This document shows positions 41,059-56,751 of a stretch of DNA of 64,000 bases, piece by piece (the stretch's first letter is position 1; each line of letters starts with the position of its first letter). This DNA is from Bacteroidota bacterium (GTDB lineage Bacteria > Bacteroidota > Bacteroidia > Flavobacteriales_E > Vicingaceae). The notes under the pieces are model-generated. The model saw only the letters and a program-made list of their open reading frames with translations. It made no database searches and was not told the origin of the DNA. Both the position numbers and the translations under genes were made by a program. The stretch lies in the NCBI GenBank assembly GCA_013112545.1, contig JABFGJ010000004.1, positions 186,001 to 250,000 on the forward strand, given 5' to 3'.

Positions 41059-42372
41059 ATGCGCCTATCTTTTTCGATTTTCTTACTAACTCTTGTCTTT
41101 TTTACTTCTCATCCAGTACAAGCTCAATCGAAAGATACAGTTAAAATTATGTCTTATAATGTATTGAGTTATAGGAATTTTACTAGTTACTGTACTAGCT
41201 CTAATAATAGCACTTCAACCAAAGAGAATGCCTTAGAAATCATAATAGACCATACTTTACCTGACATTTTAGCGGTTTGTGAAATGGGAAGTTCTCCAAA
41301 CGGAATTAATGCTTTTCATTTAATGAATAATGCTTTAAATAAAAATGGAAGAAGCTATTTTCAAATGGCAAATTATACGGTTACTGGAAATTCTAGTTTA
41401 ACTAACATGCTGTATTTTAACAGCAACAAATTTGGGTTAATAGCGCAAAATCAAATTACACATTCTATAAACAATGTTCAATTGGTGCGATTAATCGACG
41501 AATACATACTATATTATAAAGATTCAAACTTAGCTCAACACCGAGACACCACTTATTTTCATTTTCTAGTTGCACACTTAAAAGCAGGTAACACCGGAGG
41601 TGATAGAACTGAAAGAGGATTGGCTACTGAGGCTGTCATGGCTTACTTAGATACCATTAATGCCACAGGAAATTATTTTATAATGGGAGATTTTAATTTG
41701 TACGCACCAAATGAACCAGCATTTTTAGATTTAATCGCTTACAATCCTGATCCTTCTTTAAATTTTCAAGACCCTGTAAATAGAATAGGGAATTGGAGTA
41801 ATAATTCAAGTTATGCCGATGTTCATACTCAATCTACTAGAACAAGTGGAGGCTGTGGATCTAGTGGAGGAATGGATGATCGTTTTGATTTTATTTTATG
41901 TTCTGATGAAGTCATCAACAATTCTGATAAAGTCAGATATATTCCAAATACATATTGGGCTTTAGGACAAGACGGAAATCGATTTAATGGGAATATAAAC
42001 TCACCAACAAATAATAGTGTGCCCAATTATGTTGCTAATGCTTTATACGACATGAGCGATCACTTGCCTGTTTTGATGGATTTAGAAGTAACACTTCCAA
42101 CTACCAATGGTATCGAAGTTATGAATAATAATATGGAAGTTTATTTTAATAATCCAATCCAGAATACTTTAGTGATAAATTTTAAATCATCATTAAATGC
42201 AATTAAAAGCATCGAGATACTTGATTTTTCAGGTAAAGTAGTGCATCGAGTTGAGCAAGATTTAAAACAGGGAATTTCCGTTGATTTTTCAGGTAAACAA
42301 AAAGGAGTTTACTTTTTAAAAATTAATAAACAAAACGGTTCAAAACATATTGATAAATTAATAAAGATTTAA
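41059..42372 (+). CDS. Secreted endonuclease/exonuclease/phosphatase-domain protein with T9SS tail
   Basis: The protein has 437 residues with a signal peptide ending HPVQAQ. The EEP fold shows MSYNVLSYRNF, a Glu in LAVCEMG, AHLKAG, MGDFNL, DDRFDFIL and the catalytic SDHLPVLMDLE (~335-345). EEP enzymes are metal-dependent phosphodiesterases acting on DNA, RNA or phospholipids. From ~360 a T9SS type A sorting domain follows (VYFNNPIQNTLVINF...GVYFLKINKQNGS...KLIKI), so it should be exported to the surface. Extracellular phosphate scavenging is a plausible role but only inferred. Confidence 0.85.
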   Translation: MRLSFSIFLLTLVFFTSHPVQAQSKDTVKIMSYNVLSYRNFTSYCTSSNNSTSTKENALEIIIDHTLPDILAVCEMGSSPNGINAFHLMNNALNKNGRSYFQMANYTVTGNSSLTNMLYFNSNKFGLIAQNQITHSINNVQLVRLIDEYILYYKDSNLAQHRDTTYFHFLVAHLKAGNTGGDRTERGLATEAVMAYLDTINATGNYFIMGDFNLYAPNEPAFLDLIAYNPDPSLNFQDPVNRIGNWSNNSSYADVHTQSTRTSGGCGSSGGMDDRFDFILCSDEVINNSDKVRYIPNTYWALGQDGNRFNGNINSPTNNSVPNYVANALYDMSDHLPVLMDLEVTLPTTNGIEVMNNNMEVYFNNPIQNTLVINFKSSLNAIKSIEILDFSGKVVHRVEQDLKQGISVDFSGKQKGVYFLKINKQNGSKHIDKLIKI

Positions 42373-42513
42373 TACTTAAAACCTTGGTGTAATAGAATGG
42401 ATTCTTCAATTTTGCACCAATAACAAAAATAAAAAAAAGTCAAGGCACCTATCCGCTTATTGTGGATTGATAACCGGCGGGCTTAGCAAAGATAAAAAGC
42501 TGAATAATCGCTG

Positions 42514-44643
42514 ATGAAGACTAGATTTTTAATATTATGTATAACTTTTTCCTTAGGGCTTTTAGCTCAAGATTCTTTTGATGAAAAAGTTACCTCTAGC
42601 TCTAATGTCAGATTAAATGTTACCAATGTAGGTACTTTTGGAAATGCCTTTAGAGGTTATCGAGATGGAACGTCAAATGAATCTTGTGAATATCCAGCTG
42701 GTTCAGGTACTGAACACTTATTTGAATCTGGAATATGGGTTGGTGGAGTTAGAAATGGAACATTCTTAGTTTCCACTTCGGCTCTTGATGCTTCTTCTGG
42801 TTATCGTACTGGCTCGGCTGGATTTGAATTTACTGCAGAACCTGGGGCAAAACTTGATGAACGTTCTACTTACAAGGATAGTCCTTTTTATACTCCTTTT
42901 GCTGTTTCGCATCAAGATTATGTAGCCACCTTTTCTGATAAGAATGTTCAAGTTCCTGGAACAACTACACCTATAGTCAACCATACTCAACCCTTGTTTT
43001 TACAAGTTAATTTAAAAACATACAATTTTAATTTCGCCTTTAGCGACTTCATTGTTTTTGTTGATATGGAAATTATAAACACAGGCAACCTTGGAGATAT
43101 CAATTTTTTAGATAGCTTGTATTTTGGATTGTGGGCTAATACAGTTGTGAGAAATATCAACATTACACCTCCAGGTACTGGTGGAGTAGCCTTTTATAAT
43201 AAAGGTGGAAATGGATATATTGATTCGCTTAACATGGCTTATTGTTATGACTACAATGGGGATGTAGGATTTACGAACAGTTATATTTCACAACGATTTC
43301 TAGGCGCAGAAGATAAATTTGGATTTCATCATCCTAAAGTGGACTCTACGTTTAAATCAAATTATAATGCTTGGGAGTTTAACGTGCCTGGAACTGGTAC
43401 ATTTCAAGCTCCTCAAAATGATAGAGAGCGGTATAAAAAACTAAGCAAGGGATTAGAAGACGATCCTTGTTGGACGGTTGATTTAAATTGCGGAGGTGGT
43501 ACTTTTCAGGAACAATTAAATTCTGATGGCAATCGCTCTGATTTAGTTTCAGTAGGTCCATTTCGAGACTTTAAAGCTGGTGATACCATTAAGATTTCGT
43601 ATGCATTTGTATTAGCTGAAAAGTTAGATGACGGAAATCCTAATACGAGTAATACACCAGCCCAAATGGCACAGTTGGTCGAAAATTCGAATAAAGCGCA
43701 AACAGCTTATATAGGAGAAGATGTAAATTTTAACGGTATATTAGATGCTGGAGAGGATAAAGATGGCAATGGAAAAATAACTCGATTTATATTACCTAGT
43801 CCTCCTGATATTCCTAAAACAAAAATTGTTTCGAAACCCAATAAAATTGAAATATATTGGGCAGCTAATGCAGAAGAGTCTATCGACCCAATTTCTCAAA
43901 CTAAAGATTTTGAAGGATATCGCATTTATTTGTCAAAACTAGGATTTGATGTTGTTGGTGTTTCTAACCTCTTAAAAGATTTAATCCCTTTAGCAGAGTT
44001 TGATATAAAGGATAATGGTTTTGCCAATGAAATAGGTTTGGAAAAAATAAAACTAGATAATCCAGTTTCTTTTGACGGAGATCCAACTTTATATTCCTAT
44101 AAATATGAAATTAATCAAGTACTAAATGGATGGCAATATGCCGTAGCTGTTTCTGCTTTCGATACTGGCAATGAAGAACAAAATTTGGAACCTTTAGAAT
44201 CTTCATTACTAGCAAATAACTTTAGAGTATTTCCGGGAAAAGAAGCGACTCCAGCTGAAAAAAATAAAGAAAATGCCCCCTTCGTTTATCCTAATCCTTA
44301 TTATTTTGGAGCATCTTGGGAAGGGAAAAGTAATTTTCAGGAACAAAGTAGAAAGTTGGTTTTTGCCAATCTACCAAAACGATGCATTATTCGTATTTTC
44401 ACTCCAGCTGGGGACTTAATTGATGAGATTCACCACGATGAGAATTATAAAGGAGAGGATATACGTTGGTATGAAACATTTGGTGCAGAAAATTCAGAAG
44501 AAAATATATTTTCAGGTGGCGAACATGCTTGGGACTTGCTTTCAAACTACACTCAGATAATCAGTAGAGGAATCTATGTGTTTGTCGTTGAAGATTTAAA
44601 CAATGGTATAACAAGAAAAGGAAAATTCACAATTATAAAATAA
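42514..44643 (+). CDS. Secreted modular protein with fibronectin-like and FlgD-like C-terminal domains
   Basis: The protein has 709 residues with a signal peptide ending SLGLLAQ. Residues ~25-400 are a beta-rich region of no known function (NVGTFGNAFRGYRDG, FESGIWVGGV). A calcium-binding EF-hand/dockerin-like loop lies near 405 (DVNFNGILDAGEDKDGNG). A fibronectin type III-like domain follows (~426-556, KIEIYWAANAEES...DFEGYRIYLSK). The C-terminus (~586-709, YPNPYYFGASWEG to RGIYVFVVED) resembles FlgD-Ig-like/T9SS-related sorting domains. It is the first gene of a six-gene cluster, 32 bases before the next. The upstream 141 bases contain an AAAAAAAAGTCAAGGC phrase that looks like part of a dispersed repeat. 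Confidence 0.72.
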   Translation: MKTRFLILCITFSLGLLAQDSFDEKVTSSSNVRLNVTNVGTFGNAFRGYRDGTSNESCEYPAGSGTEHLFESGIWVGGVRNGTFLVSTSALDASSGYRTGSAGFEFTAEPGAKLDERSTYKDSPFYTPFAVSHQDYVATFSDKNVQVPGTTTPIVNHTQPLFLQVNLKTYNFNFAFSDFIVFVDMEIINTGNLGDINFLDSLYFGLWANTVVRNINITPPGTGGVAFYNKGGNGYIDSLNMAYCYDYNGDVGFTNSYISQRFLGAEDKFGFHHPKVDSTFKSNYNAWEFNVPGTGTFQAPQNDRERYKKLSKGLEDDPCWTVDLNCGGGTFQEQLNSDGNRSDLVSVGPFRDFKAGDTIKISYAFVLAEKLDDGNPNTSNTPAQMAQLVENSNKAQTAYIGEDVNFNGILDAGEDKDGNGKITRFILPSPPDIPKTKIVSKPNKIEIYWAANAEESIDPISQTKDFEGYRIYLSKLGFDVVGVSNLLKDLIPLAEFDIKDNGFANEIGLEKIKLDNPVSFDGDPTLYSYKYEINQVLNGWQYAVAVSAFDTGNEEQNLEPLESSLLANNFRVFPGKEATPAEKNKENAPFVYPNPYYFGASWEGKSNFQEQSRKLVFANLPKRCIIRIFTPAGDLIDEIHHDENYKGEDIRWYETFGAENSEENIFSGGEHAWDLLSNYTQIISRGIYVFVVEDLNNGITRKGKFTIIK

Positions 44644-44675
44644 ACAAATTCTCTTAAACTCTAAAATTCAATATT

Positions 44676-46871
44676 ATGAAAAAAATTATACTCTCTATTT
44701 TTAGTCTGCTTACGGTGGGTTTCGCTTCGGCGCAAAGCTATCAATATGTTGACATAAATCAGATTAACTATTCCTCTCCCGCAGCTTTACAAAACTGTGT
44801 TGACACCAGTGTTTATATCGGTGATACCATCATAACAAGAGGATATGTTGTTGTTGATGGAAACTTAAGTGAAGTTGTTTCTTCTTCAGTAACTGGAAAC
44901 AGTCGTCCATTTATTACTCTTGTTGACACAGCGAATGGCGGTGCTCCTGGTCCTTTTAAAGGAATTGTTGTAATGGGTGTTAATGCTAGTGGAACTCCTA
45001 ATACTCCAAATGCCGATTTAGAAAACGCTTTGGCTGGAGATTTAGTTGAATTAACTTGTATTGTTGCTGATTATGCAGGATTGATACAATTACAACCACT
45101 TGACAATAATTCATTTAATGTGCTTTCATTTGCTAATGCTCCTACTTACCAAACTGTACCAGTTGGAGATTTGCAAAATGCAAACAGAGAGAACATATTG
45201 CCAACAGGTGAGCAATGGGATGGTTCTTATGTAGAAATTCAAAATGTGACCGTTACTTCTGTTTCTGTTTTTAGTGGTGGTAGTAGAACTGAATTCACTG
45301 TTGCTGATGCTAATGGAAATCAAATTTTGGTAGCCGACCGTTTTTTACCGATGAAAGTTAACGGTATTGCTACGGTTAATCCAAACTCTCCAAAAGCAAC
45401 TGGTACTTTTGTTGCTCCATCTGTAGGAACTGTTTACAATTACATTAGAGGGGTTATTTTTCAAGATCAAAATGGTTGTGCTGGTGGTGGCCAATTTAAT
45501 GGTGGATATGAAATCAATCCATTTGATTCTACTCATTTTGATAAAGCAGCTTCTCCTGCATCAATTTCTTTAGTTAACAGAATGCCTAAAGTTCCAAACG
45601 CAAGTCAAACAGTAACTATTTCTGCTGACATAGTTGATAATGATGGTGTTGTTACAGGCGCTAATTTATACTATTCTGCTGACCAAAATGCAGCGGCTAA
45701 TACCTTTAGTTCTGTTGCGATGACTTCTGTTGGTTCTGTTTATTCTGCGGTAATTCCTGCATTTCCAGTTGACTCTTTAGTTAGATATTACATAGAAGCA
45801 ACGGATGACAGTGCTAATGTTTCAATTTATCCAGGTGTGAATAACTTTGATTTTTATACTGTAAGAGCAAACGGAATGACCATTATGGACATTCAAAAAA
45901 CATTATCTGGTTCTAGTGCAGACTCTCCTTATGCAGGTGATACAGTTACGGTTACAGGTATAGTTACTTCATCTTACCAATCTGGAGATATGGGCTATTT
46001 ATACATGCAAGATGCTAATGGAACTGCTCATGCAGGTATATTAGTTGACGGTGGTGGAACAGCTGTTTTTAGTTTAATGAGAGGACAAGAAATTACAGTA
46101 ACAGGTATTGCTGCTGAGCAATATGGATTTACAAAAATTACTGCCTTAACTGTAACAGCTACTGGTAATACAGGAACTGTGAATCCAGTTGTTATAGACC
46201 CTTCAGATGTTAATTTATTTGGAACATCTAACAGTCCAAATCTTGAGAAGTACGAAAGCATGTTGTTAAGATATGAGAATCCAATGTCTGGAGGAAAGGT
46301 TTATATAAACAATCCTAACTTAAACTTTGGAGAATATTCTGTAGGTTCAGGTGTAGGAGCAACTGTTTCTGCAAGAGTTTTAGCCGGAAGACAAAGTGGA
46401 ACATCAGCACAATCTTCTTTAGATGTCTCAGTAGTTTCTGATTCTGCTTTTTATGCTGCAAACATGAATGTTCCTGCTATACAAGCAAAAATCACTCAAA
46501 ACATGGATGCTTTAGTTGGAATTTTATATTACTCGTTCAATAACTTTAAATTGACTCCAAGAAACAATGCAGACTTTGTTGGTTTTAGCGAGCCACTAGT
46601 AAGCATAGAGCCCCTTGTTAATTCAAAAGTTGAAACAAGTATTTTCCCAAATCCAGCTCAAGATAGAGTAAATGTTTCTATAGACAACAATTACAAATTC
46701 AACCAAATTTCTATTCAAGTGATAGATGTAACAGGTAGAGTTGTTGTTGATCAAAGAACCTCATTGCATTTAAGTTCTTTAAATCTTAGTGGATTAGAGA
46801 AAGGAATGTACTTAATCAGAGTTTCTGAAAACAATGAATTAATTCAAGTTTCTAAATTGATTTTGAAATAG
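44676..46871 (+). CDS. T9SS-exported modular protein with OB-fold-like domains
   Basis: The protein has 731 residues with a signal peptide ending GFASAQ. Two similar parts (~residues 30-200 and ~405-520) carry the pattern GDTxxTRGxV/GDTVTVTGIVTSS...FITLVDTANGG / YLYMQDANG, which looks like an OB-fold of the secreted nuclease-associated type. Between them is an Ig-like domain (~290-390, SLVRYYIEATDDSANVSIYP). A type A T9SS sorting domain forms the end (~655-731, SIFPNPAQDRVNVSI...GMYLIRVSENNEL). There is no catalytic motif, so it is more likely a binding or structural surface protein. A strong terminator follows 7 bases after the stop. Confidence 0.8.
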   Translation: MKKIILSIFSLLTVGFASAQSYQYVDINQINYSSPAALQNCVDTSVYIGDTIITRGYVVVDGNLSEVVSSSVTGNSRPFITLVDTANGGAPGPFKGIVVMGVNASGTPNTPNADLENALAGDLVELTCIVADYAGLIQLQPLDNNSFNVLSFANAPTYQTVPVGDLQNANRENILPTGEQWDGSYVEIQNVTVTSVSVFSGGSRTEFTVADANGNQILVADRFLPMKVNGIATVNPNSPKATGTFVAPSVGTVYNYIRGVIFQDQNGCAGGGQFNGGYEINPFDSTHFDKAASPASISLVNRMPKVPNASQTVTISADIVDNDGVVTGANLYYSADQNAAANTFSSVAMTSVGSVYSAVIPAFPVDSLVRYYIEATDDSANVSIYPGVNNFDFYTVRANGMTIMDIQKTLSGSSADSPYAGDTVTVTGIVTSSYQSGDMGYLYMQDANGTAHAGILVDGGGTAVFSLMRGQEITVTGIAAEQYGFTKITALTVTATGNTGTVNPVVIDPSDVNLFGTSNSPNLEKYESMLLRYENPMSGGKVYINNPNLNFGEYSVGSGVGATVSARVLAGRQSGTSAQSSLDVSVVSDSAFYAANMNVPAIQAKITQNMDALVGILYYSFNNFKLTPRNNADFVGFSEPLVSIEPLVNSKVETSIFPNPAQDRVNVSIDNNYKFNQISIQVIDVTGRVVVDQRTSLHLSSLNLSGLEKGMYLIRVSENNELIQVSKLILK

Positions 46872-46878
46872 TATTTTT

Positions 46879-46914
46879 AATTGGGCGCAAACCATGGTTT
46901 GCGCCCAATTTTTA
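46879..46914 (+). terminator. Intrinsic terminator abutting the next gene's start
   Basis: Positions 46879-46910 are a perfect 32-base palindrome (arm AATTGGGCGCAAACC) followed by TTT and an A/T stretch, giving a GC-rich stem with a T tract. It ends 3 to 6 bases before the ATG of the lipoprotein gene at 46917. A TTG inside it opens a longer but false reading frame for that gene. Confidence 0.85.
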
Positions 46915-46916
46915 TT

Positions 46917-48371
46917 ATGAAAAACATCTTTAAATATATCATTATAGTACTTATTTTCTCAGCTTTATCTGCTTGTAAAAAAGATGAAGGAGAAATAAAA
47001 GTCAACCAAGCGCCGAACACGCAAATTTCGGTGGAAGCCATTAATTTATCTGGAGACAGAAGACTAAATACCATTGTGCATTTAACTTGGTATGGAAGCG
47101 ATCCAGATGGATATGTGGTAGGTTATGAAATTAGTTATGACCAAGTTAATTGGACTTATACCACAAAACAAGACTCCACCTTTAAATTTAGCATCAATTC
47201 TGGGTCAGATACTACTGATATAGATTTGTATGTTAGAGCAATAGACAATGAAAACCAAAGAGACCCAAGCCCAGATTACCTTAAAGTTCCAATAAAAAAT
47301 ACAGCGCCAAGTATTTCTTTTGATGCTAAACTAACCATTGCTGATACTGCATTTTTAGTAGCTACAACAGCTTGGTCGGCTCAAGATATAGATGGCATAG
47401 AAACCATAACCAAAGTGATGTTAAGTATCAATGGCAAGACCTGGTACGAACTTAACAAATCAAAAAAGACTTTTTCAATTTTACCAAGCGATCCAATTAC
47501 TTCAGACACAACAAGTTCTTACATTTATTATGATTCAGATAAAAATCCTTCAAGCCAACTAATTGAAGGTTTGGTGGTAAACGATACCAATAGACTTTAT
47601 ATAAAAGCAATAGACCAAGCAGGAACTGAAAGTAAAATAGATTCTTCGAATACATTTTATTTAAAAGGCAAAAAGAACGACATCCTCGTTGTAGGTGGAG
47701 TTACAGGTAATTCTAAATCAGTTTACACGAACTCATTAACAAATGTGGGTGTACAATATGATTTCTTAGACTTATTGGCAAACAATGGCTTGTATCAGCC
47801 GAAAGTTTGGAACATTACTTTTAGATTGCAACTCGAACAATATGATAAATTGTTTTTCTATTCTGATGAAACTATTTTTAAAAACCCATATACCAATCTA
47901 AGTGCGATGCTGCTAGAGTTTTCAGCAGCTTCATTACAAAACTATGCAAATGATGGTGGTAAATATTTGATATCGACTAAGTTCAATCACAATCAAACTA
48001 TTGATGTTTTTGTGGGAGTTTTGCCAATAGCTTCAGTTTCTACTAAGAATTATGGAAGCGCAAGATTATATAGTGGAGATTCTATTGTAACTACTTTGCC
48101 TAATTATCCTAATTTAAGTACAAACACAACCATTTCTGGAGTTGGAGTTTACAACATAGATAGTGCAGATACAGAAGTTTTATATACCGCTAACGTAGTA
48201 GATGGAAGGCCAACAAAGCCTTGGAATGATACTAAGATAATTGCATCTGGAAGAAGAGTTGGTGGAAAACTAAACCAAATTTATTTTGGAATGCAATTGT
48301 GGCAGCTATACGATAAGCCAGAACGCTTAGAAGCATTATTCAACCAAATTTTTAATGTAGAATTCAATTGA
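46917..48371 (+). CDS. Lipoprotein with fibronectin-like domains, surface operon
   Basis: I start at ATG-46917, where a lipoprotein signal peptide begins (MKNIFKYIIIVLIFSALSAC, Cys20), giving 484 residues. The earlier in-frame TTG lies inside a terminator palindrome and would place 12 odd residues before the signal. Two Ig/fibronectin-like domains follow (~35-220, LTWYGSDPDGYVVGYEISYD, YVRAIDNENQRDPSPD). The C-terminal ~230 residues (NDILVVGGVTGNSKSVYT...QLEQYDKLFFYSDE) look like an alpha/beta glutamine-amidotransferase-like fold without an evident nucleophile. The stop overlaps the receptor ATG (TGATG). Confidence 0.72.
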   Translation: MKNIFKYIIIVLIFSALSACKKDEGEIKVNQAPNTQISVEAINLSGDRRLNTIVHLTWYGSDPDGYVVGYEISYDQVNWTYTTKQDSTFKFSINSGSDTTDIDLYVRAIDNENQRDPSPDYLKVPIKNTAPSISFDAKLTIADTAFLVATTAWSAQDIDGIETITKVMLSINGKTWYELNKSKKTFSILPSDPITSDTTSSYIYYDSDKNPSSQLIEGLVVNDTNRLYIKAIDQAGTESKIDSSNTFYLKGKKNDILVVGGVTGNSKSVYTNSLTNVGVQYDFLDLLANNGLYQPKVWNITFRLQLEQYDKLFFYSDETIFKNPYTNLSAMLLEFSAASLQNYANDGGKYLISTKFNHNQTIDVFVGVLPIASVSTKNYGSARLYSGDSIVTTLPNYPNLSTNTTISGVGVYNIDSADTEVLYTANVVDGRPTKPWNDTKIIASGRRVGGKLNQIYFGMQLWQLYDKPERLEALFNQIFNVEFN

Positions 48372-51202
48372 TGAGAAAGTATATTCAACTATTTCTTGCT
48401 TTACTTATTTGCTATGCTTCTGCTGATGCTCAAGTGAATACAGGAATTTTAAAAGGAAATGTTGTAGATGAAAGTACGGGCGAGCCTTTAATTGGAGCTA
48501 CAGTTGTGATTGTAGGTACTTATAAAGCAACAAGTTCAGATTTTGTTGGTGATTATGAAATTGAAGGGATAAAACATGGTGATTATTCTGTAAAATTTAC
48601 TTACATCGGATATGCCGATAAAATATTCAATGGCATTTCCATCAAAAAAGGTGAAACTTTAAAACTCGATGTAAAACTGAAGCCAAGTGCTCAAGCCTTA
48701 GGAACTGTCGAAATTGTTGGAAAAAAGAATTTAGTTAACCTAGAATCTGCCAAGTCTGAAGTGACTATTTCTCAAAAAGAAATTGCCGAAATGAATGTAA
48801 GAGACGTTCAGGAGTTGGCGGCCATGCAATCTGGAATTAACAAAACTCCCGATGGTTTACAAATAAGAGGAGCAAGGGTTTATGAAACACAATACATGGT
48901 GGATGGAATATCTGCTCAAGATCCTTTAGCTGGAACTGGTTTTGGAGTAAATGTTTCTTCTAGTTCTATAGGTAAATTAGACATTATAACTGGTGGGGCA
49001 GGAGCCGAATTTGGCGATGGCTCATCTGGGGTTATTTCTACAACCATTCGCGAAGGTGGAGATAAATTAGAGTTTTCTGGAAGCTGGCAAAGAGATAATT
49101 TAGGTTTCAACAAAAATGGAAACTCTTCATGGAATACTGATATTGTAGAACTATCTGCCGGTGGACCAGTTCCTAAAACCAAAAAGAAATTAAGCTTTTT
49201 TGCTAACGTTACCACTCGACTCACGGATACTTATTTTGGTGAAGAAGCCGATCAATTAAGCAGTTCTTTGATGGAAAATAACCCTGAAATATGGGCTCCT
49301 AGACAAGACAACAATTTTACAAATACTTTAAAACTTTCTTACAACCTAAAAAAAGGTTCTAAACTAACCTTAACCAATCAGCATAGTTTAAGCATCAATC
49401 AAAACACTAGAACTTTACAAATTGTTGGATTCGATGCTTTATTGCAACCTGGTTATCAGTTTGAAAGAAGTTTAAATCTAGATAATGCAAGTACTTATAC
49501 GCATCAATCAAATCTAACAGCATTAAACTACAAGAAAATTTTAAATGAAAGAACGTGGTTTAATGTTTCTGTAGGTAGGTTATTTACTAATTTAAGAGCT
49601 GATGCCAATGGAAGACCTTTTAGGGAAGAAACTGTTGATCAAATTTACGATGAAGCTTCAATTGTAACCGATCCTGTTTCTATCTATAACCCGGGTGATG
49701 AAATACGATTTGTTTTACCTGGCCCAGGTTTAGTTAATAATGGTGGTATAACTCCTTTATGGCACGATCATTTTGCTCAAGAATATACCTTTAAAACTCA
49801 AGTGACCCGCTTTTCTGAATCGCAAAAAAGCAAATTGACTTTTGGTTTTGAGCATAAAATGCAACATCTTCAATGGGTTGATGTATCAAGTCCTTGGATT
49901 GGTGCCCCCATTCAAATTAACGATTCAGTTACTTCGCCAGCCGTTAGTGTTGGTTCTTCAAATGATATTTGGGAAGTGAAACCTTTTAATGGAGGCTTGT
50001 TTGTGAGTGATGAAATTCGCTACCGAGGAATTATTGCAACTGTAGGGATGCGTTTAAATTATTGGGCACCTGGGAAATTTGCTGATGATGCGGTAGAAAA
50101 TCCTTTATCTCCGGTTGTTGACCAAGTGCGCGATGATTATCAAGATAAAACGGTAGGATTACTAGGATACCGCATGAAAGCGAGATTATTGCCCAAAATT
50201 AATGTGTCATTCCCAGTTTCTGAAAACAATGTACTGTATTTCAATTATGGTCACTCCATGCGTTTGCCTCATCCTCGATTTGTATATGCCGGTTTAGACC
50301 CTCAATATCAAGATCGTTCTTTTTTGTCTAACCTAGGAAACCCAGACATTAATCCAGAGGTAAACATCTCTTATGAAGTTGGGTATAAAACACAAATAAC
50401 CAAAGACATTGGTTTAACCCTTGCTGCATTTAACAACAATCGATTTGACTATATCGTGCAACGTAGTGTAATTGTAAAAGACCAAACAGGAAGACCAGTT
50501 ACCAAGCGTATGTATATCAATCAAGATTATGCTCGAATTATGGGCTTAGAAGGTGGTGTTTCATATAGATTTAAAGATTATTATAGAGCATTTGTAAATG
50601 CAACCTATCAAGTAGCAAGAGGTAAGTCAAATTCAGCTAGAGAGTCTGGTTTACAAATTGAGCAAAATGGAGCCGTTGAATTGTCTTCAGAACAATATTT
50701 AGCCTTTGATAGACCTTGGGACATTACCTTGGGGTTTGTCATGACAACAGATTCTTCGTTTAAAATAAGAGGAAGAGCCATTCCTGGATTAAGAATATTC
50801 CTGTCTTTCAATTATGTTTCTGGTTTCAGATACACACCTTATGCGCAAGAAGGTGTAAATGATGTGGGCAGACCTTTATTTGTTCGACTAGACGATCAAT
50901 ACCTACAAGAAGTTTCTAAACCTTGGTACCAATCGGATTTAAAAATCAGTAAAAATGCCTTTTTCTATAATAAGAAAGTGGGTGTTACTTTTAGCATAGA
51001 AGTAAGAAACTTATTGAACATTAAAAATTCAGTAATTATTAATCCAATTACTGGAGAAGCATATAAAGATGGAGATGATGTGCCAAATGAATGGCGAGAC
51101 AATCGATACTTAGGGCCACAAGAAGGTGGAACTCCATCTGATAATCCAGCTAGATACTTAGCTCCAAGACAAATTTTATATGGTGTTAGCTTTAAATTTT
51201 AA
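48371..51202 (+). CDS. TonB-dependent receptor, SusC-like architecture
   Basis: I start at ATG-48371, which overlaps the preceding stop codon, giving 943 residues; a TTG lies one codon earlier. The signal peptide ends ADAQ. A carboxypeptidase regulatory-like domain follows (GILKGNVVDESTGEPLIGATVVIVGT), then the plug (IAEMNVRDVQELAAMQSGI, LQIRGARVYETQYMVDGIS, IISTTIREGG-like edge) and a large barrel ending YGVSFKF. There is no SusD partner; instead a PorV-like gene follows after 1 base. The ligand may be a protein-assembly or export partner rather than a glycan. That is inference. Confidence 0.87.
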   Translation: MRKYIQLFLALLICYASADAQVNTGILKGNVVDESTGEPLIGATVVIVGTYKATSSDFVGDYEIEGIKHGDYSVKFTYIGYADKIFNGISIKKGETLKLDVKLKPSAQALGTVEIVGKKNLVNLESAKSEVTISQKEIAEMNVRDVQELAAMQSGINKTPDGLQIRGARVYETQYMVDGISAQDPLAGTGFGVNVSSSSIGKLDIITGGAGAEFGDGSSGVISTTIREGGDKLEFSGSWQRDNLGFNKNGNSSWNTDIVELSAGGPVPKTKKKLSFFANVTTRLTDTYFGEEADQLSSSLMENNPEIWAPRQDNNFTNTLKLSYNLKKGSKLTLTNQHSLSINQNTRTLQIVGFDALLQPGYQFERSLNLDNASTYTHQSNLTALNYKKILNERTWFNVSVGRLFTNLRADANGRPFREETVDQIYDEASIVTDPVSIYNPGDEIRFVLPGPGLVNNGGITPLWHDHFAQEYTFKTQVTRFSESQKSKLTFGFEHKMQHLQWVDVSSPWIGAPIQINDSVTSPAVSVGSSNDIWEVKPFNGGLFVSDEIRYRGIIATVGMRLNYWAPGKFADDAVENPLSPVVDQVRDDYQDKTVGLLGYRMKARLLPKINVSFPVSENNVLYFNYGHSMRLPHPRFVYAGLDPQYQDRSFLSNLGNPDINPEVNISYEVGYKTQITKDIGLTLAAFNNNRFDYIVQRSVIVKDQTGRPVTKRMYINQDYARIMGLEGGVSYRFKDYYRAFVNATYQVARGKSNSARESGLQIEQNGAVELSSEQYLAFDRPWDITLGFVMTTDSSFKIRGRAIPGLRIFLSFNYVSGFRYTPYAQEGVNDVGRPLFVRLDDQYLQEVSKPWYQSDLKISKNAFFYNKKVGVTFSIEVRNLLNIKNSVIINPITGEAYKDGDDVPNEWRDNRYLGPQEGGTPSDNPARYLAPRQILYGVSFKF

Positions 51203-51203
51203 G

Positions 51204-52220
51204 ATGAAAGCAGGACTAAAAATAGGAACCTTATTACTCGTTTGCTTGATGAGCATGAATGCTTGGGGACAACTAATTCCAAATTTTGGGGGTCAAAGAG
51301 CTGGTTTGTCAACTTTATCATTTTTAAAAAATGACATTAACCCAAGGTCTGCTTCCATGAGTGGAGCTAGTGTGGCTTTAAATGGTGATGCTTTTTCCAT
51401 TTTTTCAAATCCGGCAGCTACAACGGACAACGAAGGGTTTAATGTAGCAATGAGTAATTACACAATAGGTGCGGGAATTCAACAATCTTTTGTTTCGGCT
51501 GTAATGCCTACTAAAAGCAAATTATCGACTATTGGATTATCGGTGAATACTTTGAATTCAGGAGCTATGGATGTAAGAACTGAATTTCAACCAGAAGGGA
51601 CTGGCGAGAAATTTTACGTCAGTAATTTAGCGATAGGAGCTTCTTATGCTCAAAAGTTATCGGATATGTTTTCTGCTGGAATAAGTTTAAAATACATTCA
51701 CGAGCAAATTGATACCTATTCTAATTCTACAGCCGCTGCCGATGTAAGTTTCTTATATTTTACCGATTATAAAGATTTGAAATTTGCGGTTATGATTCAG
51801 AATTTTGGAGGAAACTCTTCCATCAATGGCGATGAATTGAAAACAACTTTTAACAGAACAGGAACTTTAGAGCCAGAAAAATATTCTGTACCAACAGTTT
51901 TTAGTTTAGGTGCTTCCATCATACCATGGAAAAAAGAGAAACAATCTTTATTAGTTGCAGCTCAATTAAACCATCCTAACGACAATGCGGAGAACTATAG
52001 AATTGGCTTGGAGTATCAATATTTAAAGCTGTTGTATTTAAGAGCAGGCTATAAAATTAATGTTACTGGGCAGCGATTTCCAAGTTTTGGATTTGGAATT
52101 AGAAAACTGTTTGGAGCTCATCCATTGTTTATAAGCTATGCTGCAAACCCAACAGAATTTCAAGGTATTCTTCACACAGTTGGATTATCAATCACTATAA
52201 ATAACATGGAACGTGAGTAG
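51204..52220 (+). CDS. PorV/PorQ family outer-membrane protein
   Basis: The ATG at 51204, 1 base after the receptor stop codon, begins a signal peptide (MKAGLKIGTLLLVCLMSMNA); this gives 338 residues. The mature N-terminus INPRSASMSGASVALNGDAFSIFSNPAA is the PorV/PorQ signature. The rest alternates like a FadL-type 14-strand barrel, ending HTVGLSITINNM. PorV carries T9SS cargo from the Sov pore to the attachment complex, and PorQ-like proteins have related roles. A paralogue inside a cargo operon may serve just these exported proteins. Confidence 0.8.
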   Translation: MKAGLKIGTLLLVCLMSMNAWGQLIPNFGGQRAGLSTLSFLKNDINPRSASMSGASVALNGDAFSIFSNPAATTDNEGFNVAMSNYTIGAGIQQSFVSAVMPTKSKLSTIGLSVNTLNSGAMDVRTEFQPEGTGEKFYVSNLAIGASYAQKLSDMFSAGISLKYIHEQIDTYSNSTAAADVSFLYFTDYKDLKFAVMIQNFGGNSSINGDELKTTFNRTGTLEPEKYSVPTVFSLGASIIPWKKEKQSLLVAAQLNHPNDNAENYRIGLEYQYLKLLYLRAGYKINVTGQRFPSFGFGIRKLFGAHPLFISYAANPTEFQGILHTVGLSITINNMERE

Positions 52221-53415
52221 AATTAAACGATATATTTCTTTCGCTTTTGGATTAAGTTTATTGCTTGGTATGACCTCCTGTGATCATTATTTTGGAGATA
52301 AAACAGACTTAGATTTTATAGAAATTCCAACACAATCTTATCGTGAAGTGGCCTATGTGCCAGTTCAGCCAATTTTAAACCAATTTTTAGAACCCACTGA
52401 TATAATCGCCGGATTCGATGAACTTATTTATATAGTAGATGCAGGCACACAAGAAGTTATTGCTTTAGATGAGTCAGGTAGAGAGTTATCAAGAAAATTT
52501 ATTCAAGGAGCAAAAGGAATAGCTCAAGACCGAAGTTTAGATTTATTGGTGATAGGTTCTAAAACGGATCATAGTTCAGGCAGCCCAATCGTAAGAACTT
52601 GCATATATCGTTTAGAATTAAATCAACCTGAAGGATATGGATTGCAATATGCAAAAATTGTAAAGGAAATTGTTCATCCTTTTTATTTTAAAACTTCAGC
52701 AATATCAAGAGACGAGCAAGTAAAATTTAACCGAATTGCTGTAATTTCTGATAATTCTTTCTATGTCACTCGTTCTGGCGATTTTAACAATCCGCTTCAA
52801 TCAGGAGGCCCTGACAATTCAATTTTACTGTTTGATAAGCATGACAAATTTGTAACTCCTATAGTAGTCACCAATAGCTCAGGCGGTTTGTTTAATGATT
52901 ATTTTAAATATCCTTTTGCTATATCAAGTTTGGCAAAACCACCACAAATCAGTGTTGATACCCGAGGAGACTTCATCTTTTCTTCCTTAGATCCAAATGG
53001 AGTTTTAAAAGTACAATACATCGAGAACCAATCTTCGGAAAACGGAAGCATTTATGTTCCTAAAACAAGTTGGAGTAACGATACAAGCCAGGCGAGTAGC
53101 TTTATTACAGATGCTTTTAAATTTGAAGAACCAGTTGGTGTAGAATATGCCGGAGATGGATCCAATTATATTTTTGTTGTTGATCGTGCTAAAGATTCTT
53201 TATATCAGTTTACAGCAAATGGTCTAGAAGGAGTTAGACCCCCACCAGCTTCTGGTAAAACGAAATACATCAAAACATCTTTTGGAGGGACAGGCGATGG
53301 ACCTACTAATTTTAATAAACCAATGGCCATTGCCTACAAAGACAGAGTGTTGTATGTTGCAGATGCAGGAAATGGTAGAGTTTTAAGATTTAAGTTAACA
53401 CTTGATATTCGATAA
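52213..53415 (+). CDS. NHL/beta-propeller lipoprotein of the surface operon
   Basis: The protein has 400 residues and starts at GTG-52213, overlapping the previous gene by 8 bases; no closer ATG exists. The signal ends in a lipobox (GMTSC, ~Cys23). Repeated blades such as IAGFDELIYIVDAGTQEVIALD, VGVEYAGDGSNYIFVVDRAKDSLYQF and MAIAYKDRVLYVADAGNGRVLRF are NHL-type beta-propeller motifs, which mediate binding. It is the last of six tightly packed genes. A Crp-family gene follows after 5 bases and may share the transcript. Confidence 0.78.
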   Translation: MSRIKRYISFAFGLSLLLGMTSCDHYFGDKTDLDFIEIPTQSYREVAYVPVQPILNQFLEPTDIIAGFDELIYIVDAGTQEVIALDESGRELSRKFIQGAKGIAQDRSLDLLVIGSKTDHSSGSPIVRTCIYRLELNQPEGYGLQYAKIVKEIVHPFYFKTSAISRDEQVKFNRIAVISDNSFYVTRSGDFNNPLQSGGPDNSILLFDKHDKFVTPIVVTNSSGGLFNDYFKYPFAISSLAKPPQISVDTRGDFIFSSLDPNGVLKVQYIENQSSENGSIYVPKTSWSNDTSQASSFITDAFKFEEPVGVEYAGDGSNYIFVVDRAKDSLYQFTANGLEGVRPPPASGKTKYIKTSFGGTGDGPTNFNKPMAIAYKDRVLYVADAGNGRVLRFKLTLDIR

Positions 53416-53420
53416 GAATT

Positions 53421-54056
53421 ATGAAAAATCAAGAAGCACAAGATCTTTATCAGCCATTTTTTGAGGAGGCATTGCTTCAAGAAATTGCTCAATTTGGGCT
53501 TAAAAAATCAGTTAAGGAAGGTTTTGCATTGATGGAAATAGGGCAGAAGGTGACTCACATGCCTTTAATGCTGTCGGGTGCAATTAAAATATTACAAGAA
53601 GATAAAGAGGGAAATGATTTACTACTTTATTTTATAGAAAGAGGCGACACCTGCGCCATGACTCTGAATTGTTGTTTGGGAAATACTAAAAGTGATATTA
53701 GAGCCATCGCTGAAATTGATTCAGAACTTCTAATGATTCCAATTCATTTAATGGATGAATGGATGGTGAAATATCCTTCCTGGAGAAAATTTGTTTTTGA
53801 AAGTTATCACATTCGCTTTAAAGAGATGTTGCAAGCCATAGACAATATCGCTTTCTCAAATATGGATGAACGCCTTACAAAATACCTATTGGACTTAGCT
53901 TCAGTTCGCGGAAGTGATACCATTAAAATAACACATCAAGAAATTGCAGTTGACTTGCATACCTCTAGAGTAGTGGTTTCGCGCTTACTTAAAAAATTAG
54001 AAAACAAAAAGGCCATCGCTTTAAATAGGAATAGCATAGAAATAATCAAACTATAG
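53421..54056 (+). CDS. Crp/Fnr family transcriptional regulator
   Basis: The protein has 211 residues. It has an N-terminal cyclic-nucleotide-binding-like beta barrel (~20-130) and a C-terminal winged helix (~150-211, ITHQEIAVDLHTSRVVVSRLLKKLE). The usual cAMP contacts are not evident. Three cysteines in GDTCAMTLNCCLG (Cys78, 84, 85) may sense redox or persulfide. It sits 60 bases upstream of the TauE gene, with a GTAAC-N4-GTTAC palindrome in between, which suggests that it controls the sulfur genes downstream. Confidence 0.85.
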   Translation: MKNQEAQDLYQPFFEEALLQEIAQFGLKKSVKEGFALMEIGQKVTHMPLMLSGAIKILQEDKEGNDLLLYFIERGDTCAMTLNCCLGNTKSDIRAIAEIDSELLMIPIHLMDEWMVKYPSWRKFVFESYHIRFKEMLQAIDNIAFSNMDERLTKYLLDLASVRGSDTIKITHQEIAVDLHTSRVVVSRLLKKLENKKAIALNRNSIEIIKL

Positions 54057-54072
54057 TGTAACCATCGTTACT
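54057..54072 (+). promoter_or_regulatory. Candidate Crp/Fnr operator before the TauE gene
   Basis: GTAAC (54058-54062), CATC and GTTAC (54067-54071) form an inverted repeat centred about 30 bases upstream of the TAnnTTTG box, in the -33 region. It starts right after the Crp gene stop codon. The form fits known Crp/Fnr half-sites, but binding is untested. Confidence 0.5.
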
Positions 54073-54093
54073 TTTATAGAATATTAGTTTCTC

Positions 54094-54101
54094 TAATTTT
54101 G
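54094..54101 (+). promoter_or_regulatory. -7 promoter box of the TauE gene
   Basis: TAATTTTG matches TAnnTTTG, 14 bases before the ATG at 54116. The candidate Crp site covers the expected -33 position. Confidence 0.45.
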
Positions 54102-54115
54102 CCTTCTTTTAATAC

Positions 54116-54919
54116 ATGGACATCAATCTACTATTCGGATATATAGGAGCCTTATCAATTGGCATAGTGCTAGGCTTAATTGGTGGAGGTGGTTCTATTT
54201 TAACAGTCCCAATATTAGTTTATTTATTGGCTATCAATCCAGTACTCGCCACCGCATATTCTTTGTTTGTGGTCGGTGTTTCTTCACTCTTTGGCGCCCT
54301 TAGAAATGCCGCCAAAGGATTAGTAGATTTTAAAGTAGCGCTTATTTTTTCAGTTCCAGCTTTCATTGCTGTTTACATAGCCCGAAAGTTTTTAGTGCCA
54401 GCGATTCCCGAAAGCATTTTCCAATTCAATTCATTTGAATTGACAAAAAACATAGCCATCATGGTATTTTTTGCAATCATTATGTTGTTGGCTGCTTTAT
54501 CAATGATTAGTAACAAACAAAATTCTACGGAAAGTGAAGAAACACAAAAAATTCAATACAATTATCCGATAATCATGATTAAAAGTTTTTTTGTGGGCAT
54601 CATTACAGGAATTGTAGGAGCAGGCGGAGGTTTTTTGTTTGTTCCTTCTTTGATTATTCTAGCAAAGTTGCCCATGAAAAAAGCAGTTGCAACTTCCTTG
54701 TTAATTATCGGAATTAATTCGCTTATTGGATTTACTGGAGACCTGCAATACTTAGAAATTGATTGGTCGTTTCTATTAAGTTTTACGATTGTAGCAATTG
54801 TGGGTATATATATGGGAATGTGGCTTAGTAAATTTATAGAAGGGAAAAAATTAAAGGCAGCTTTTGGATGGTTTGTGTTGTGCATGGCCATTTATATTAT
54901 TTTTAAAGAGCTTTTATAA
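54116..54919 (+). CDS. Sulfite exporter TauE/SafE family protein
   Basis: This 267-residue protein has about eight hydrophobic helices in two homologous halves. Each half starts with a glycine-rich motif: GLIGGGGSILTVPILVYLL (~20-38) and GIVGAGGGFLFVPSLIILAK (~162-181). TauE/SafE proteins move sulfite, sulfoacetate or similar anions out of the cell. Position between a Crp regulator and a persulfide dioxygenase-rhodanese gene favours sulfite export. A 419-base gap separates it from the latter. Confidence 0.85.
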   Translation: MDINLLFGYIGALSIGIVLGLIGGGGSILTVPILVYLLAINPVLATAYSLFVVGVSSLFGALRNAAKGLVDFKVALIFSVPAFIAVYIARKFLVPAIPESIFQFNSFELTKNIAIMVFFAIIMLLAALSMISNKQNSTESEETQKIQYNYPIIMIKSFFVGIITGIVGAGGGFLFVPSLIILAKLPMKKAVATSLLIIGINSLIGFTGDLQYLEIDWSFLLSFTIVAIVGIYMGMWLSKFIEGKKLKAAFGWFVLCMAIYIIFKELL

Positions 54920-55338
54920 ATAAATTTGTTAGTAAGATAAATACAGACAGAACATTTAATTTAAATTTTAAACGCCATTTAAAATCACTGGTGTACATTA
55001 AAATTTTATACATACATAAAATATAACTTAAATGACTTATAATTAAAAGGATAAAATGAGGCTCTCTAATTAAAACTTGATATTTATACTTTGGGACTGC
55101 CTTTTAGCAAAAGGTAAGTAAATTTGATGAATTGCCTTAGAGAAACCGGAAAGCTTCGAAGGTTGACCGAGAAGATCATCCGGCTGAACTTAGGTAATTC
55201 GAGGATTTTCTTACTTTTTGATAAGGGCTGAGTTTTTTGTTTTACTTTTTGCTCATCAAAAAGTAAACTAAAACCCAATAAGGTATCAAAATTTGATGTT
55301 TGTCGGACAATAGTGATTAAAAATATAAAAAATAGAAC
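54920..55338. other. Intergenic region with dispersed-repeat-like sequence
   Basis: The region carries no gene that I can support. The stretch ~55180-55290 holds a hairpin and phrases (TTACTTTTTG twice, CTAAAACCCAATAAGGT) that resemble repetitive intergenic text common in Bacteroidota. The promoter of the metallo-hydrolase gene must lie here, but no clean TAnnTTTG box is visible near its ATG. Confidence 0.5.
55241..55267. repeat. Hairpin inside dispersed-repeat-like sequence
   Basis: TTTACTTTTTG (55241-55251), loop CTCAT and CAAAAAGTAAA (55257-55267) form a perfect 11-bp stem. A related CTTACTTTTTGAT sequence lies just upstream at ~55210. As far as I recall, similar text recurs between genes in several Bacteroidota genomes. 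Confidence 0.6.
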
Positions 55339-56751
55339 ATGAAAATAGAACAAATATATACAGGTTGTTTAGCACAAGGTGCTTATTATATAGAAAGTGA
55401 AGGTGAAGTAGCGATAATAGATCCACTTAGAGAAGTGAAACCATATCTTGAAAGAGCAAAAAACGACGGAGCTAAAATTAAATACATTTTAGAAACACAT
55501 TTTCATGCCGACTTTGTCAGTGGTCATGTTACTTTGGCAAAAGAGACAGGTGCAACCATTGTTTTTGGACCCAATGCAAATCCAAGTTTTGATGTAAAAA
55601 TTGCCGAAGATGCCGAAATACTCGAATTGGGAAATATTAAAATTAAAGTATTGCATACTCCAGGGCATACGATGGAAAGCACTTGTTATTTATTAATCGA
55701 TGAAAAGGGGAAAGAGCATTCCCTATTTTCTGGAGACACCTTATTTCTTGGTGATGTAGGAAGGCCTGATTTAGCTCAAAAAGCAGCACACATGACCCAA
55801 GAAGATTTGGCGGGAATATTATTTGACAGCCTAAGGACTAAAGTGATGACTTTAGCAGATGATGTTACGGTTTATCCAGCCCACGGTGCTGGTTCAGCTT
55901 GTGGCAAAAACATGATGAAAGAAACTGTTGACAGCCTTGGAAATCAAAAGCAGATGAATTATGCTTTAAGAGCAGACATGACCAGAGAAGAATTTGTCAA
56001 AGAAGTAACGGATGGTTTGTTACCGCCTCCTATGTATTTTCCAATGAATGTCAAAATGAATAAGGAAGGCTATGATGACATTGATGTAGTGCTAGAAAGA
56101 GGTACAAAAGCATATAGTCCAGATGTTTTTCAAGCAGTAGCGAATGAAACAAATGCTGTTATATTAGATGTTAGAGCTGTTTCTGAATTTGTAGAAGGTT
56201 TCATACCTAAATCTATTTCTATTGGGATAGATGGACAATTTGCCCCTTGGGTTGGAGCATTAATTGCAGACGTAAAGCAAGCAATATTACTTGTTTTGCC
56301 AGAAGGAAGGGAAGAGGAAGTAGTCACCAGATTATCTCGTGTTGGTTTTGATAATACCTTGGGTTATTTGAAAGGAGGATTTAATGCATGGAGAAATACA
56401 GGCAAAGAAATAGACACCATAAAATCGATTAGCGCAGAAGTATTTAAATCTGAAAAAGAAACTTGTCCTTTACCTATTTTTGATGTTCGGAAACCAGGAG
56501 AGTATGCAGGAGAGCATTTAGAAGAAGCATACAATACTCCACTGGATTTTATAAATGAGCACTTTTCTGATTTTCCTAGAGATCAAGACTTTTACATTCA
56601 TTGTGCAGGCGGTTACCGCAGTGTAATAGCGGCTTCAATTTTAAAAAGTAGAGGAATACATAATTTAATCGACATTTCTAGTGGGTTTGCAGGCATTAAA
56701 GAAACTGGCATTCCCACTACCGATTTTGTTTGCCCATCTAAGGCTTTATAA
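55339..56751 (+). CDS. Persulfide dioxygenase-like MBL-fold hydrolase fused to two rhodanese domains
   Basis: The protein has 470 residues. An ETHE1-like metallo-beta-lactamase domain (1-245) has metal ligands in THFHADFVSGH (His54, His56, Asp58, His63), then TPGHTMES, SGDTLF and YPAHG. Two rhodanese domains follow (~254-355 and ~367-464). The second has the active Cys422 in HCAGGYRS; the first has no cysteine in its loop (VLPEGREEE) and is probably structural. The expected chemistry is that rhodanese passes sulfane sulfur to glutathione-like thiols and the MBL domain oxidises it with O2 to sulfite. This fits the neighbouring TauE exporter. Confidence 0.87.
   Translation: MKIEQIYTGCLAQGAYYIESEGEVAIIDPLREVKPYLERAKNDGAKIKYILETHFHADFVSGHVTLAKETGATIVFGPNANPSFDVKIAEDAEILELGNIKIKVLHTPGHTMESTCYLLIDEKGKEHSLFSGDTLFLGDVGRPDLAQKAAHMTQEDLAGILFDSLRTKVMTLADDVTVYPAHGAGSACGKNMMKETVDSLGNQKQMNYALRADMTREEFVKEVTDGLLPPPMYFPMNVKMNKEGYDDIDVVLERGTKAYSPDVFQAVANETNAVILDVRAVSEFVEGFIPKSISIGIDGQFAPWVGALIADVKQAILLVLPEGREEEVVTRLSRVGFDNTLGYLKGGFNAWRNTGKEIDTIKSISAEVFKSEKETCPLPIFDVRKPGEYAGEHLEEAYNTPLDFINEHFSDFPRDQDFYIHCAGGYRSVIAASILKSRGIHNLIDISSGFAGIKETGIPTTDFVCPSKAL

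Follow-up and report, generated by a model that had tools for sequence, protein, structure and literature searches.

An ancient surface operon of the Bacteroidota, probably for DNA capture

In Riemerella anatipestifer, which transforms without pili, a transposon screen found two neighbouring genes, for a DUF5689 protein and a CarboxypepD-domain barrel, to be essential for natural transformation, with ComEC, DprA, RecA, ComF and a protein with three HhH domains as further requirements (PMC8459023). Mutants in tonBA and tonBB of the same species have lower transformation, and the tonBA mutant has no iron-uptake defect (PMC8383284). Here we analyse a six-gene set, A-B-C-D-E-F, and the adjoining gene nuc in a stretch of 64,000 nucleotides (nt) from a Bacteroidota bacterium of the Vicingaceae (GenBank assembly GCA_013112545.1, contig JABFGJ010000004.1, positions 186,001 to 250,000, forward strand). 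This whole stretch is called the window, and coordinates are window positions unless a locus is named. The set is an ancient surface operon, probably for DNA capture. Together with an accessory nuclease secreted by the type IX secretion system (T9SS), it would form a machine at the cell surface for capturing nucleic acid from the surroundings, most likely in the form of DNA, and importing it across the outer membrane; judged from sequence, the chances of this seem to us about even. An earlier reading of this DNA (the original prediction) knew of no described system of this composition, and our searches of the openly accessible literature, with subscription-only papers outside their reach, agree: they returned no description of the operon and no experiment on any of its proteins.

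Conservation of the locus and its nuclease-type neighbour

In the window, the six genes lie in the order first described, all on the + strand like nuc. A and B are separated by 32 nt and B and C by 45 nt, while the remaining genes overlap (C-D by 1 nt, D-E by 23 nt and E-F by 8 nt); nuc precedes A on the same strand at a spacing of 141 nt. The six genes, their order and their tight packing, as originally predicted, are borne out by the coordinates and domain matches, and family-profile searches likewise found no SusD among the seven genes. The claim that the locus has no enzyme gene was mistaken, since directly upstream of A, at 41059..42372 (+), lies nuc, an Exo_endo_phos protein with a T9SS tail.

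Conservation was surveyed in 46 genomes of the window's family, in a class sample of 395 genomes and in a phylum sample of 395 genomes. The order A-B-C-D-E-F is kept in 80 distinct loci holding all six genes, found in the window's family and as far afield as Ignavibacteria and other classes of Bacteroidota, which is far more than chance would give and disposes of the possibility that the order is unique to this genome. Carriers include Cryomorphaceae, Schleiferia, Salibacteraceae and many Ignavibacteria and Melioribacteraceae, and these distant carriers have the same order at about 40% identity in A, the most conserved member of the operon. A is present in 87 of the 395 class-sample genomes and 114 of the 395 phylum-sample genomes, normally as one full-length copy; C, also normally single-copy, occurs in 113 of the latter, 111 of which have A as well. 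Orthologues of E at 60-70% identity are found in 16 of the 46 family genomes, the home genome included, a group that comprises Acidiluteibacter and Vicingaceae records, and every complete locus of the family has the layout nuc-A-B-C-D-E-F. Some Bacteroidia families hold partial sets, in which A-B-C-D, A-B-C or A-B remain close together or A stands alone. Families with a lone A beside unrelated conserved neighbours (L117, L119, L121 and L126) suggest a separate role for A. In locus L227 no separate B gene was found and C is a frame of 899 amino acids (aa), which points to a possible fusion or rearrangement of the two genes in that lineage.

The protein encoded by nuc (437 aa) is a secreted enzyme of the endonuclease/exonuclease/phosphatase (EEP) family with a T9SS type A tail (Pfam PF03372, 4.3e-6; PF18962, 2.2e-11), whose EEP motifs YN, GDFN and SDH, as well as E75, are invariant in 11 orthologues. 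It is accessory and often present: nuc adjoins A in 12 of the 12 family loci where that flank is covered, and motif searches place an EEP or PLD gene next to 39 of the 80 six-gene loci, against a background of 1 in 420 non-adjacent genes. Pfam adds PLD partners, some with DUF5689 domains, in four Ignavibacteria loci (L192, L197, L205, L207). The neighbour enzymes come from two unrelated families. In Flavobacteriales they lie upstream of A, in other classes mostly downstream of F, and both flanks of the operon are thus represented; orthologues of nuc itself follow F in L190, L212, L213 and L226. T9SS-tailed PLD partners are found in L229 and L241, and EEP and PLD genes stand in tandem in L226. 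Large T9SS-tailed proteins with DUF5689 and PLD, or lamin-tail, domains also adjoin the operon in other classes (L226, 15421-18681; L213, 15489-18809; L229, 15014-17368, in locus coordinates) and are probable additional partners acting on nucleic acid.

The distribution of the operon is complementary to that of the Riemerella-type locus. A strong DUF5689 locus is present in 20 and the A-F operon in 16 of the 46 family genomes with no overlap, where about 7 shared genomes would be expected; in the class sample the corresponding figures are 50 and 53 genomes, again with no overlap and about 11 expected. The DUF5689 loci of operon-free genomes encode a barrel, a lipoprotein-like DUF5689 protein and, often, a T9SS-tailed protein. 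At 8 of 20 such loci this third gene is homologous to the middle and tail of B (domains of 70-100 bits), and 4 of the 20 have a nuc orthologue nearby (36-41% identity). No strong DUF5689 gene was found in the home genome. Two components of the kind used in the Riemerella pathway are encoded there: ComEC and a protein of 304 aa containing three HhH domains.

Proteins of the operon and the B-C junction

B (44676..46871, +) is a secreted protein of 731 aa with an OB/DUF5689-like domain at about residues 400-505 and a T9SS type A tail. It matches the N-terminal module of ExeM/NucH nucleases (NF033681, 52.4 bits) and the N-terminal region of the EEP protein structure 9sf8. Type A cargo was recognised by a Por_Secre_tail domain at the C terminus. 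Both nuc and B score above the cut-off (B with 46.0 bits against 23, so that the one clear T9SS tail of the original prediction is that of B), and A is recognised by profile-profile comparison only, its tail being a divergent relative of the T9SS tail (hhalign probability 78-87%). A (42514..44643, +; 709 aa) is secreted and has an N-terminal beta-supersandwich domain, an Fn3 domain and the tail in an AlphaFold2 model of pLDDT 90.6, with weak fold matches. A catalytic role for A was rejected, as A lacks the (alpha/alpha)6 barrel that accompanies the supersandwich domain in GH94 enzymes.

C (46917..48371, +) is a lipoprotein of 484 aa with two Fn3/Ig-like domains and a GATase1-like alpha/beta domain; the fold search with its model (pLDDT 92.5) matched 2d7j at a TM-score of 0.57 by target. 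Its lipobox Cys20 is invariant in 63 sequences and is the only invariant cysteine, so that the GATase-like domain has no conserved nucleophile and a catalytic role was rejected here too. F (52213..53415, +; 400 aa) is an NHL/beta-propeller lipoprotein (PF01436) with beta-propeller matches and an invariant Cys23. Downstream of F, at 53421-56751, a Crp/Fnr regulator, a TauE/SafE permease and a metallo-beta-lactamase-rhodanese protein resemble a separate sulfur-handling cluster, and these genes, crp and tauE among them, are not kept beside the operon in relatives.

D (48371..51202, +; 943 aa) has the plug, barrel and TonB-box-like motif of a TonB-dependent receptor and a CarboxypepD_reg domain (PF00593, PF07715 and PF13715, with plug and barrel above cut-off); the motif, V(E/V)(I/V)VG, is kept across the phylum. 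E (51180..52220, +; 346 aa) is an outer-membrane barrel of the PorV/PorQ family (NF033709, 162.8 bits against a cut-off of 90) which stays far below the T9SS PorV equivalog (NF033710, 65.6 against 250 bits) and also below the PorQ and PorV2 cut-offs. All E proteins cluster in a tree of the PorV family, but branches are long and the grouping is weakly supported (72% of bootstrap trees). The home genome has eight PorV-family matches, with a canonical PorV (468 bits) beside PorU at G000:C2 and PorQ, PorV2-PorU2 and SprA also encoded elsewhere; SprA was present in 40 of the 40 A-bearing genomes tested. E is thus a paralogue distinct from PorV, PorQ and PorV2 and additional to the core T9SS. The predicted dedicated PorV-family paralogue beside a receptor and secreted proteins is thereby supported, and the possibility that E is the only canonical PorV of this genome is excluded. 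A second cluster of receptor, cargo and PorV-family barrel is present in the home genome (L056, G000:C2:1530-10621), with a TonB receptor of 1255 aa, a protein of 1412 aa with weak A-like stretches and a barrel of 357 aa; relatives of this barrel occur in family genomes without the A-F operon.

The junction between B and C carries a terminator-like hairpin, a strong one in the window at 46879..46910 (+) with a stem of 14 bp, 7 of them G-C, and a T-tract. By one criterion applied to every junction such a hairpin is found between B and C in 45 of 71 loci (14/14 in the window's family, 11/16 in other Bacteroidia and 20/41 in other classes), where shuffled sequences give about 0.15, and at the other five junctions in 4 of 321 cases (nuc-A 0/20, A-B 1/87, C-D 2/75, D-E 1/69, E-F 0/70). 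The stem sequences vary among genera, which indicates that the structure is kept and not the sequence. C starts with the ATG at 46917, an alternative TTG at 46881 falling within the hairpin, and since only 6 nt separate the hairpin from this start codon, transcription of C-F must mostly read through the hairpin. We infer that it is a device yielding more A and B than C-F. The term operon, used for all six genes from the start, calls for the correction that the hairpin divides A-B from C-F.

A conserved, structured leader element lies between nuc and A, in the window at 42438..42483 (+). At ten loci of the family (the window, L040-L045, L048, L049 and L131) it has 46-55 nt in the arrangement AGTC-AGGCACCTAT-hairpin-GATAAMCGGC-GRCT, with invariant flanks and an inner hairpin that covaries over the 10 sequences. 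It occurs once per genome in these 10 genomes, and the model matches the window element with 63.7 bits. No Rfam family matched, and the model search outside the window's family found nothing. In combination with the internal terminator further downstream, the leader could be a riboregulator or antitermination element. A search for sigma-70-type promoters gave 53 hits where 57 are expected by chance, and Bacteroidota-type -7 boxes were found upstream of C in 1 of 14 loci.

DNA uptake and competing explanations

Import of DNA fits the data better than export. This preference rests on the secreted nuclease neighbour, the OB/DUF5689 domain of B, the TonB-box-like motif of D and a distribution in which the operon replaces the transformation locus. 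In the mechanism we propose, the type IX system would export nuc, A and B; B, through its OB/DUF5689 domain, and possibly A would bind nucleic acid at the surface; and the lipoproteins C (Fn3/GATase-like) and F (propeller) would make up the portion of a complex on D that lies outside the cell. Powered by TonB, D would carry the nucleic acid through the outer membrane. E may hold the T9SS tails of nuc, A and B or pass them on, which would dock these secreted proteins next to D, and nuc may trim the DNA or degrade one strand. The B-C hairpin would end most transcripts after B, so that the secreted parts exceed the membrane parts.

It is tempting to speculate further that in much of the Bacteroidota A-F is the outer-membrane DNA-uptake machine by which natural transformation proceeds without pili, T9SS-assembled, TonB-powered and with its own PorV-type barrel, and an ancestral or alternative form of the Riemerella DUF5689/barrel locus. 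This more specific proposal is tentative, with the balance of probability somewhat against it.

Several observations weigh against DNA uptake. The DUF5689 score of B, 26.6 bits, is just below the cut-off of 28.6, and many loci lack a neighbouring nuclease, among them 21 of 32 outside Bacteroidia. Cleavage by EEP and PLD enzymes extends to other phosphodiesters, and a secreted nuclease could destroy transforming DNA. At genus level within the family the chance of zero overlap with the DUF5689 locus is only 0.013, and the mutual exclusion may reflect phylogeny instead of shared function. D and the Riemerella-type barrel are not orthologues, the profile of D matching the barrels of DUF5689 loci only in the N-terminal CarboxypepD region, at 34 bits or less, and C, E and F are without counterpart at that locus.

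The first alternative is nutrient scavenging alone. Extracellular nucleic acid would be broken down at the surface by the secreted nuclease and the OB proteins, and D would take up nucleotides, oligonucleotides or phosphate, in the manner of a polysaccharide utilisation locus (PUL) for glycans, with no intact DNA crossing the membrane. The secreted EEP and PLD enzymes beside the operon agree with such a role, as does the fact that TonB-dependent receptors usually import small molecules, and Bacteroidota are prominent degraders of extracellular DNA (PMC8289736). We nevertheless consider it unlikely, as PULs are multi-copy and variable while the operon is single-copy with a fixed order across the phylum, the nuclease is missing from many loci, and it is a transformation locus with which the operon is mutually exclusive.

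The original prediction saw hints of a specialised export or surface-assembly machine, perhaps making a surface structure out of the two secreted proteins. On such a reading E, as a private PorV, would gather A and B and act together with C, D and F to construct or anchor the structure, with the receptor serving assembly and not import. The similarity of E to PorV above all else, the T9SS-type tails of A and B and the second receptor-cargo-PorV cluster of the home genome would suit this, and there is a precedent in type B tails, whose class of T9SS cargo has dedicated surface partners in PorP-like proteins (PMC9143113). Such a platform leaves the recurrent nuclease linkage and the motif of D unexplained, and comes in genomes which, where tested, already have SprA and, in the home genome, the canonical PorV, PorU and PorQ. 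With the OB/DUF5689 domain of B also pointing elsewhere, it is not supported as the leading explanation and seems to us rather doubtful; A and B could still join into a surface structure as one stage in the working of the DNA-capturing machine. It is very improbable that the EEP or PLD enzyme processes another phosphodiester as the substrate of the system (phospholipid, polyphosphate or teichoic-acid-like material). Although these superfamilies include phospholipases and phosphatases and the N-terminal domain of A resembles the supersandwich domain of glycan phosphorylases, the OB/DUF5689 module in B and PLD partners and the link to the transformation locus speak against it.

If DNA capture is correct, A-F would be a phylum-wide, so far unnamed surface machine which explains DNA acquisition in many Bacteroidota without competence pili, and it would be a case of cooperation between the T9SS, a paralogue of PorV and a TonB receptor. 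The complementary distribution with the known transformation locus makes the model directly testable in cultured carriers. Even with a substrate other than DNA, the operon stands out as an important envelope system that is so far undescribed, given its single-copy six-gene order, common to Flavobacteriales and Ignavibacteria, and a hairpin kept at precisely one junction.

Comparison with known systems

Several described systems have parts in common with the operon. In the BamG-BamH module of the Bacteroidota BAM, reported as universal in the phylum, a FadL-like barrel has surface lipoprotein partners (PMC12611786, PMC12578637), whereas our operon has no BamA or BamD and is missing from many Bacteroidia genomes. 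A BAM accessory of this type was rejected, as the PDB profile search with E returned PorV (6h3i) as sole relative and no FadL or BamG. The ExeM/NucH nucleases, such as Shewanella ExeM (PMC6085458), share an OB-type module with B and an EEP catalytic domain with nuc, but here these reside in separate genes, whose products both end in a T9SS tail and score below the family cut-off; a full-length nuclease of this kind is excluded (NF033681, 52.4 bits for B and 18.6 for nuc against 300). With the PorV and SprA-PorV translocon and attachment complex of the T9SS the operon shares the barrel family of E and cargo with T9SS tails, while E falls under the PorV, PorQ and PorV2 equivalog cut-offs and canonical PorV, PorU and SprA are encoded elsewhere.

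A SusCD PUL likewise combines a TonB-dependent receptor, surface lipoproteins and a secreted enzyme. The operon differs in having no SusD, a single copy, a fixed order and a phosphodiesterase-type enzyme instead of glycoside hydrolases, and assignment to this class was rejected from the absence of SusD beside the receptor and the low score of D for SusC/RagA (TIGR04056, 49.4 against 368 bits). The locus RA0C_RS04915-RS04920 of Riemerella anatipestifer (PMC8459023) resembles the operon in its TonB-type outer-membrane barrel with a CarboxypepD domain and its DUF5689/OB-type surface protein. Its homologous loci often have a T9SS-tailed homologue of B, sometimes an orthologous EEP nuclease nearby, and a distribution that excludes that of the operon. 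They differ in a barrel that is not an orthologue of D and in having no counterpart of A, as of C, E and F, and their DUF5689 protein is lipoprotein-like with 414-478 aa, whereas B is a T9SS cargo of 731 aa.

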